A stretch of 64,000 bases of DNA from Alkalicella caledoniensis. GTDB taxonomy: Bacteria > Bacillota > Proteinivoracia > Proteinivoracales > Proteinivoracaceae. The stretch spans positions 3,410,001 through 3,474,000 of the forward strand of contig NZ_CP058559.1 of NCBI RefSeq assembly GCF_014467015.1, read 5' to 3'. Below the pieces are notes generated by a model. It saw only the letters and a list, made by a program, of their open reading frames with translations, did no database searches and was not told where the DNA came from. Of this stretch, positions 1-41,822 are shown one piece after another. Position 1 is the first letter of the stretch. Each line of letters begins with the position of its first letter. The position numbers and the translations under genes were made by a program.

Positions 1-564
1 ATTGGAGTTTATACAATTAAAGCCAGCGTAGAACAAATTCGTTATTATAAAGATGATAGTATTGTACACATTTATGTGGATACAAACGATTCAGGCTACG
101 AAATGGTGACATTCAGTAAAGAAAAGCTTAAAGAAGGAACAATTACATATCACTTTGTAAACAACCTAGGGGAAACCATAACCATGGAAGAAGACTATAT
201 ATATTCCACACCGGTGAATTATAGTATTTTAGATGAGGGAGAGAAGTATCTAGCATCTCAAGGGTTAGACCAATTTGTTATGGTAGATAGCGAGGTTAAG
301 CCTGTTATCTCATCAGCGGGCTATGACATTGAGATTTTGGAAAACCTAGAAGATAATCAAATAGGCCTATATGTATTTGGCGCTCAGATATTAACCATAC
401 AAAAGCAAGGTGACAACCTGCGAGTTTATTTCAAAGAGTCTGAAGGCTATCAGGCCATAAGCTTTGATACAACTGGCTTAAGGGAAGGGCAAAATTTTGC
501 TAAATTCGTTAGAGATAGCGACTTAAAGGAAGTAGAGACAATTAGTTTTTGGATTAACAGATAA
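1..564 (+). CDS. 3' part of an unrecognised protein gene
   Basis: The reading frame is open from the first base of the window, so the true start lies to the left and at least 187 C-terminal residues are visible. A GTG at 76 is in frame but has no ribosome site and is unlikely to be the start. The visible part is rich in short beta-prone stretches alternating with charged residues, with no cysteines and no membrane segment. It resembles an extracellular or surface beta-sandwich protein, but I do not recognise the family. No terminator-like hairpin follows the stop. Confidence 0.6.
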   Translation: MGVYTIKASVEQIRYYKDDSIVHIYVDTNDSGYEMVTFSKEKLKEGTITYHFVNNLGETITMEEDYIYSTPVNYSILDEGEKYLASQGLDQFVMVDSEVKPVISSAGYDIEILENLEDNQIGLYVFGAQILTIQKQGDNLRVYFKESEGYQAISFDTTGLREGQNFAKFVRDSDLKEVETISFWINR

Positions 565-713
565 TTTAAGTTCAAAAAGAATAAACTGTTCCACATAAGG
601 ATATAATAGAATAAATTAAATTATATAAATATTCCAAATTAAAGAAGGGATTTTAAAAAATTTGGAGAATTATTAAAAAAGAATAAAACTTATTTAAGGG
701 AGGCGGTATTTTA

Positions 714-40350: not shown

Positions 40351-40379
40351 TTGAATAATGTCTATTTGTATGTTAATAT
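40351..40379 (+). promoter_or_regulatory. uraA promoter
   Basis: TTGAAT, a 17-bp spacer and TAATAT. The predicted start is near 40386, a few nucleotides before the first PyrR element, as in other PyrR-controlled leaders. Confidence 0.7.
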
Positions 40380-40388
40380 CTATCTAAG

Positions 40389-40473
40389 CCTTTAAACTAA
40401 TCCGAGAGATTAGTAAGGAGTGAACCTATATGATTTAGGGTATACTACTTCTTGCTAAGCAAGAAGTTTTTTT
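40389..40473 (+). promoter_or_regulatory. PyrR binding element 1 with transcription attenuator
   Basis: CCTTTAAA and AGTAAGG flank the stem-loop ACTAAT-CCGAGAG-ATTAGT (40389-40418), the PyrR anti-antiterminator type. Its 3' arm AGTAAGGAGT (40412-40421) can instead pair over 10 bp, with two G-U pairs, with ACTTCTTGCT (40447-40456). That segment is the left arm of the terminator ACTTCTTGC-TAA-GCAAGAAGT plus T7. Uridine-nucleotide-bound PyrR would thus favour termination before uraA. Confidence 0.8.
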
Positions 40474-40494: not shown

Positions 40495-40576
40495 CCTTTA
40501 AACTGGGTCGGGAGCCTAGTAAGGAAGTAATAGTTTCCTTATTCCCCCCTAAGGCTAAAAAAACCTGAGGAGGAAA
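40495..40576 (+). promoter_or_regulatory. PyrR binding element 2 next to the uraA ribosome site
   Basis: A second element with identical CCTTTAAACT and AGTAAGG arms encloses GGGTCGGGAGCC (40495-40524). No T-run terminator follows. TAAGGAA can pair with TTCCTTA (40535-40541) when PyrR is absent. If that pairing is lost, TTTCCTT (40534-40540) can pair with GAGGAAA (40570-40576), which covers the uraA Shine-Dalgarno site. This points to translational control; it is inference from base pairing. Confidence 0.6.
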
Positions 40577-40580
40577 TCAA

Positions 40581-41822
40581 ATGTCAGAGAGAAAATTAAC
40601 ACCCCTTAACATTTTGCCATTATCCATTCAACATTTATTCGCAATGTTCGGTGCAACAATACTTGTACCAGCCCTTACAGGTCTTGATCCATTAGTAGCA
40701 CTATTTACATCAGGTATGGGTACTATTTTATTTGCAATCATAACAAAAGGTAAGGTGCCAGCATACTTAGGATCTTCCTTCGCTTTTATAGCCCCTATTA
40801 TAGTGGTTAGAGATAGCCACTCTATTGCAGTAGCCATGGGAGCATGTGTTGTTGTAGGTTTGGTATATGTAATTGTATCAGCTTTAGTAAAAGTCGTGGG
40901 AACTAAGTTTTTTGAGAAATACTTACCAGCAGTTGTTGTAGGTCCAGTAATTATGACAATTGGTTTGTCTTTAGCAGGTGTTGCTAACGATATGGCTTCA
41001 GGGCACCTACCACTAGCACTTATTACACTATCCATAGTTATTGCCTTCACCATCTTTGGCAAAGGAATGCTTAAAATAATCCCAATACTACTGGGTATAG
41101 CCGGTGGTTATGTAATAGCTTTAATCTTCAACTTCTTGATAGTAAACAACATGGTACCAGAGTTTTTAACAGGAATTATTGGTACAGAAGCAATTTTTGA
41201 TTTTAGTGAACTTGCTAAAACAAGCTGGATGCCAGCACTTCCAAACTTCATTAAACCAGAATTTGAGATATCAGCCATGGTAGCAATAGTACCATTTGCT
41301 ATTGTTACACTAGTAGAGCACTTAGGTGATGTACTGGCTATAGGAAAAACAGTTGAGCAAGATTTCGTTAAGGAACCTGGCTTACACAGAACCATCTTAG
41401 GTGATGGAGTAGCCACCTTATTAGCTGCCTTTGTAGGTGGCCCTCCAAACACAACCTATGGTGAAAATATTGGTGTACTTGCAATCACAAAGGTTAGAGA
41501 ACCTATAGTAGTGCAAGTGGCTGCTTTAATAGTTCTTGTACTAAGTTTCTTGCCAAAATTCGGTGCCTTACTTGCTACAATCCCAGTAGCAGTAATGGGC
41601 GGTATCGTAATACTACTTTTCGGTATGATATCTTCAGTGGGGATTAGAACATTAGTTGATTCTAAAATAGATCTAGCAAACACTAGAAACCTTATCATAG
41701 TATCCTCAATTTTAATATTTGCCTTAAGTGGAATCGAAATATTAGGATTCTACGGAATGGGACTAGGTGCCCTTGTAGGTATATTCTTAAATGCTGTCTT
41801 ACCTGAAAAAGTAAGTAAGTAA
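40581..41822 (+). CDS. uraA: Uracil permease of the NCS2 family
   Basis: The 413-aa transporter has about 12-14 helices and imports uracil with protons. NCS2 signatures are the N-terminal SIQHLFAMFGATILVP, the central EHLGDVLAIG region and GGPPNTTYGENIG. The GAGGAGGAAA ribosome site lies just before the ATG. The tandem PyrR leader strongly supports a pyrimidine substrate. A terminator shared with rqcH follows. Confidence 0.94.
   Translation: MSERKLTPLNILPLSIQHLFAMFGATILVPALTGLDPLVALFTSGMGTILFAIITKGKVPAYLGSSFAFIAPIIVVRDSHSIAVAMGACVVVGLVYVIVSALVKVVGTKFFEKYLPAVVVGPVIMTIGLSLAGVANDMASGHLPLALITLSIVIAFTIFGKGMLKIIPILLGIAGGYVIALIFNFLIVNNMVPEFLTGIIGTEAIFDFSELAKTSWMPALPNFIKPEFEISAMVAIVPFAIVTLVEHLGDVLAIGKTVEQDFVKEPGLHRTILGDGVATLLAAFVGGPPNTTYGENIGVLAITKVREPIVVQVAALIVLVLSFLPKFGALLATIPVAVMGGIVILLFGMISSVGIRTLVDSKIDLANTRNLIIVSSILIFALSGIEILGFYGMGLGALVGIFLNAVLPEKVSK

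Follow-up and report, generated by a model that had tools for sequence, protein, structure and literature searches.

PyrR is the textbook protein-controlled attenuator of Bacillota. To our knowledge, translational repression by this protein is known from mycobacteria only. In Mycobacterium smegmatis, a PyrR loop lies before the start codon, no terminator is present, and translation is repressed in a single tier. This case of translational repression was reportedly described by Fields and Switzer in 2007 (J Bacteriol 189:6236). Here we analysed a 64,000-nucleotide stretch of the Alkalicella caledoniensis genome (the window), in which the leader of uraA contains two PyrR-like elements in series. 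The second of these, element 2, has the same loop architecture and putatively the same regulator as the attenuators of the Bacillus subtilis pyr operon (RF00515) and likewise belongs to pyrimidine transport or synthesis genes; however, RF00515 elements end in a terminator, whereas element 2 has none and faces the ribosome site instead. It resembles the M. smegmatis element in being a terminator-free PyrR loop ahead of a start codon, but differs from it in that the loop lies about 42 nt from the ribosome site, a third strand would be needed, and a transcriptional tier comes first. In the mycobacterial type, the 3' arm of the loop overlaps the ribosome site; this was not observed for loop 2 of uraA, but pyrB and pyrC in A. 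caledoniensis both show it.

The closest precedent for a two-tier logic at uraA is TRAP. In the trpEDCFBA operon of B. subtilis, this single protein acts at both levels: it promotes termination of transcription, and it represses trpE translation by way of a structure in which the ribosome site is sequestered (PMC12288461). The same order, a terminator tier followed by a tier of the same regulator on the read-through RNA, is found at uraA as sequence architecture only, and whereas TRAP is an 11-mer acting on NAG repeats, the uraA leader carries two separate PyrR loops. Tandem SAM-II/SAM-V riboswitches also place two sensors in series and have been described as able to act transcriptionally and translationally (PMC11508383), but they are ligand-binding RNAs of two classes with no protein. 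The open-access papers searched contained no account of PyrR leaders in tandem or in two tiers, and nothing on translational PyrR elements in Clostridia. We consider a two-tier PyrR leader, with its second tier directed at translation, to be the best explanation for the uraA locus, with a probability of roughly 0.55.

Layout of the uraA leader and its second loop

The uraA gene (40581-41822; all features of this leader lie on the forward strand) encodes an NCS2-family uracil permease (TIGR00801, 324.8 bits, over the cut-off); its best match was the uracil permease model NF007995, with a score below the cut-off of that model. A likely sigma-A promoter, TTGAAT-17-TAATAT, was read by eye at 40351-40379. 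It matches 8 of 12 consensus bases and is therefore absent from our promoter scan, whose threshold was nine; given this promoter, the leader RNA would likely start near element 1. Element 1 (40389-40418, CCTTTAAACTAATCCGAGAGATTAGTAAGG) is a PyrR binding loop, or anti-antiterminator, and has hardly changed across five genomes from three genera. By direct complementarity, UUAGUAAG (40410-40417) pairs with CUUGCUAA (40451-40458) to give an antiterminator spanning 40410-40458, and both segments are unchanged in the five family genomes. The intrinsic terminator (40447-40473) consists of a 9-bp stem at 40447-40467 followed by T's to 40473. A PyrR protein is encoded in A. caledoniensis and in all four of its relatives examined. 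Tier 1 would be a standard PyrR attenuator: at high UMP, PyrR would occupy loop 1, the antiterminator would not form, and transcription would stop near 40473.

Element 2 (40495-40524, CCTTTAAACTGGGTCGGGAGCCTAGTAAGG) was said in the preliminary description to be a second copy with identical outer arms, 22 nt after the first terminator and with no terminator of its own. The arms CCTTTAAACT and AGTAAGG are indeed the same in both elements, and element 2 does follow the terminator, at a spacing that we measured as 21 nt from the U-tract. Between 40300 and 40640, the terminator of element 1 was the only terminator-like site, and none was found after element 2. Because it lies past the terminator, element 2 cannot affect termination and can act on read-through RNA only. 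Its end is 56 nt from the uraA start codon.

Element 2 shares about three quarters of its sequence with element 1. It has the lower stem CCUU/AAGG, whose two arms we call segments 1 and 2, a 5' bulge similar to UUAAA and an upper stem of at least five pairs, as is typical of PyrR loops. When the window was searched with R1, a loop-only covariance model trained on 70 binding loops of other taxa, elements 1 and 2 were the top two matches, with 29.0 bits (E 0.00045) and 17.8 bits (E 0.18), respectively. The Rfam model RF00515 matched element 1 at 39 bits, below its gathering score of 54 bits, and left element 2 unmatched; the element 2 loops of two relatives, G003 and G004, failed to pass the R1 search. 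The terminal loop of element 2 is CGGGA closed by U-G in the window (a five-base loop) and CNGNGA closed by A x G in G003 and G004. The R1 training set demanded a C-G closing pair, which makes the invariance of that pair there circular, so an unbiased recount was made. Among approximately 171 arm-and-stem hairpins collected without the closing-pair rule, 155 were closed by C-G, 11 by A x G and two by U-G, and 15 had a CGNGA loop. Judged by its sequence, the loop of element 2 appears degenerate, with closures that are natural but uncommon, and its affinity for PyrR may be lower.

A chance hairpin would account for a score of 17.8 bits with an E-value of 0.18 over the whole window. However, the element lies directly after the uraA PyrR attenuator, where the E-value falls to approximately 1e-4 (our own scaling, to the roughly 100 nt after element 1), its arms are identical to those of element 1, and it has a counterpart in another genus. 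We regard a chance origin as very improbable, and the conservation across genomes already disfavours it. That conservation was examined in the window genome, in G003 and G004 from one other genus, and in G001 and G002 from another. Both G003 and G004, whose UraA proteins are 63-65% identical to that of the window, have the two elements, again arranged as loop 1, terminator, loop 2 and start codon, so that three sequences, two of them from one genus, carry element 2. The upper stem of loop 2 reads ACUGGGU/GCCUAGU in the window and CUGAG/CUCAG in G003 and G004, its pairing being kept through compensatory changes. Between G003 and G004, loop 2 differs at two of 37 sites, which are precisely the two N's of CNGNGA, compared with 12 of 56 sites downstream (p = 0.04). 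On these sequence comparisons, element 2 is a real second PyrR-like element.

Such an element could still be a decaying duplicate of the attenuator that does little or nothing, translation being held at a low, fixed rate by the ribosome-site hairpin alone. The extensive identity to element 1 fits this explanation, as do the loss of the terminator and of the best loop bases, the degenerate loop, and the situation in G001 and G002, two of the five family genomes, whose uraA leaders have element 1 only and retain the ribosome-site hairpin alone. Against it, loop 2 has been retained by two genera, its stem pairing compensated, and the sister species differ only at free loop positions. We consider decay unlikely, though well short of negligible.

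In the uraA leaders of G001 and G002 (L098, 1410-1490, and L099), which have no loop 2, a GCCUA segment has two possible UAGGC partners, one of them within the ribosome-site hairpin; this might be a switch that lacks PyrR features. No tandem loop was present in the 74 named uraA leaders checked from other taxa. One Clostridia metagenome-assembled genome (JAAYTB010000159.1; L081, approximately 1437-1480) has a PyrR-loop-like hairpin with the loop CACTGA before uraA, and the 3' arm of this hairpin, AAAAAGGAGG, is the ribosome site.

Predicted alternative pairings between loop 2 and the ribosome site

The uraA ribosome site, GAGGAGG, is located at 40567-40573, 7 nt before the ATG, and is separated from element 2 by the linker of about 42 nt. 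In free folds of all three genomes with element 2, the 3' arm of loop 2 paired with the segment that follows it (segment 3), as UAAGGAA/UUCCUUA in the window, GGAGG/CCUCC in G004 and GGAGGA/UCCUCC in G003. When loop 2 was locked, the state that bound PyrR would impose, segment 3 paired with the ribosome site in all three, as UUUCCUU/GAGGAAA in the window and UCCUCC/GGAGGA in G003 and G004. In the window, the 2:3 hairpin, a proposed antisequester, spans 40520-40541 (40520-40526 with 40535-40541) and excludes the lower stem of element 2. The pairing that had been proposed for the PyrR-free RNA is therefore present, and it is the lowest-energy PyrR-free state of the model. The second proposed pairing, over the ribosome site, was recovered at 40534-40540 and 40570-40576 (overall 40534-40576) in the lowest-energy fold with element 2 locked; its predicted amplitude is small and did not exceed that of shuffled sequences. 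Covariation of the pairing segments in relatives had been named as a check, and it was observed in part: GGAGG/CCUCC replaces AAGGAA/UUCCUU in the other genus, while G001 and G002 have no element 2.

Tier 2 would act on read-through transcripts. PyrR on loop 2 would keep the 3' arm AAGG from pairing with UUCCUU, and segment 3, thus freed, would strengthen the pairing over the uraA ribosome site and reduce translation. In the absence of PyrR, arm 2 would instead be paired with segment 3, leaving a ribosome site that is easier to open. PyrR binding to loop 2, an effect on translation and the size of that effect are our inferences. In the model, for the RNA from the loop to the start codon, locking costs 1.6 to 2.5 kcal/mol relative to the free state, a penalty that would be within reach of a tightly binding protein. 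The linker bases shared by both pairings exceeded those in dinucleotide shuffles of the linker in the window (p = 0.023) and in G003 (p = 0.022); in G004 the value was p = 0.13. Locking changed the cost of opening the ribosome site by +1.8, +0.3 and +1.2 kcal/mol in the three genomes, values not beyond those of shuffles. Their small size reflects other pairings that hold the ribosome site even while loop 2 is open; the site is partly paired in both the free and the locked states. One such structure, UUCCCCCCUAAGG/CCUGAGGAGGAA (40542-40575), is a hairpin formed locally across the ribosome site; it was found in the folds of the window, and counterparts can be drawn, from folds or by eye, in the other four family genomes, G001 and G002 among them. 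Effects that arise co-transcriptionally may escape equilibrium folding. The predicted direction of the switch is as proposed, its amplitude is uncertain, and the three-strand switch in its exact form, although plausible, has weak support. A small predicted switch is also what a decaying duplicate would show; against decay stands the 2:3 hairpin, re-created in other letters in the other genus.

PyrR on loop 2 might instead act in another way, for example through mRNA stability, RNA polymerase pausing or steric hindrance of the ribosome without refolding. Past the terminator, later steps alone are open to loop 2, its end is close enough to the ribosome site to be within reach of an initiating ribosome, and the static folds change little, all of which suit such an action. 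The alternative pairing with the ribosome site in three of three genomes speaks against it, as do the loops that contain the ribosome site at the A. caledoniensis pyrB and pyrC, an indication of translational control; we judge these other modes of action to be improbable. For the two-tier reading with refolding, a further candidate, an outer antisequester (AGCCU/AGGCU in the window, AGCUC/GGGCU in G003 and G004), covaries but lies 2.2-5.4 kcal/mol above the free state and was not adopted. Inspection by eye of the region between element 2 and uraA revealed no ATG, GTG or TTG at a distance usable for a leader peptide in any of the three genomes.

PyrR loops at pyrB, pyrC and in other Bacillota

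At pyrC of the same genome, a second loop comes directly after loop 1 and a terminator, and its 3' arm, AAAAGGAGG, is also the ribosome site. The pyrB gene, which is divergent, has a single loop, likewise with the ribosome site as its 3' arm, and no terminator, and in all five family genomes a loop containing the ribosome site lies directly before the pyrB start. A loop pattern ending in AAGGAGG was found in 30 of 398 Bacillota genomes, from 23 genera, with no match in the reversed control; most matches lack a nearby downstream start codon and resemble ordinary attenuators. A terminator followed by a ribosome-site loop, the two-tier order, was observed at pyrB of G358, G116 and G036, with G278 as a further case. 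This order was thus found in four families and at three genes (uraA, pyrC and pyrB), the pyrB cases being in three other families. Tandem PyrR leaders with two terminators also occur, at pyrB of G008-G012 (L172-L176) and at L177, L179, L182 and L186. A second loop is therefore not in itself translational, and the distinguishing mark of uraA is the missing second terminator.

Translational PyrR control, known in mycobacteria according to the preliminary description, seems not to be confined to them, since ribosome-site loops precede pyrB across the family and in others. The suggestion made there that the leader acts twice agrees with the terminator-free second loop in two genera and with the two-tier order at pyrC, and is weakened by a ribosome site that is partly paired in both states. 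That PyrR controls single mRNAs twice, by termination and then translation, through two loops, as a recurrent design in Bacillota with a distinct third-strand version at uraA, is in our estimate an evenly balanced proposition.

Several leaders in this family also contain short open reading frames (ORFs). At pyrC of G003 and G004 (L199 and L208) and carA of G001 and G002 (L203 and L192), the 3' arm of the loop is the ribosome site of an ORF of 31, 26, 52 and 37 codons, respectively, which continues across the U-tract of the terminator; in three of the four cases it stops at the gene start or beyond. These leaders look like PyrR-gated leader-peptide attenuation. Such a mechanism has reportedly been proposed for the pyr genes of Thermus. 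In the A. caledoniensis pyrC leader (L002, 1544-1646), an ORF that starts after loop 1 remains open across the terminator and loop 2 and enters pyrC in frame. The pyrB ORF of this genome (L002, 600-1370, minus strand) encodes 256 aa, compared with approximately 304 residues in the family model, and adjoins a transposase-like ORF (2-640, plus strand); pyrB may have been cut by an IS element.

Implications for pyrimidine control

The uraA leader probably forms a double lock, in which loop 1 can stop transcription and loop 2 shuts off translation of any message that has slipped through. The 3' arm of a PyrR loop, AAGG(AGG), itself resembles a ribosome site, which would offer a simple route for rewiring from one output to the other. 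If the two-tier reading is true, a single regulator acts on transcription and on translation within the same cell and on the same mRNA, making a tighter shut-off possible. The PyrR leaders would then also form a natural series (a terminator alone, a ribosome-site loop alone, or both) in which the rewiring of one RNA-binding site between transcriptional and translational control could be studied.
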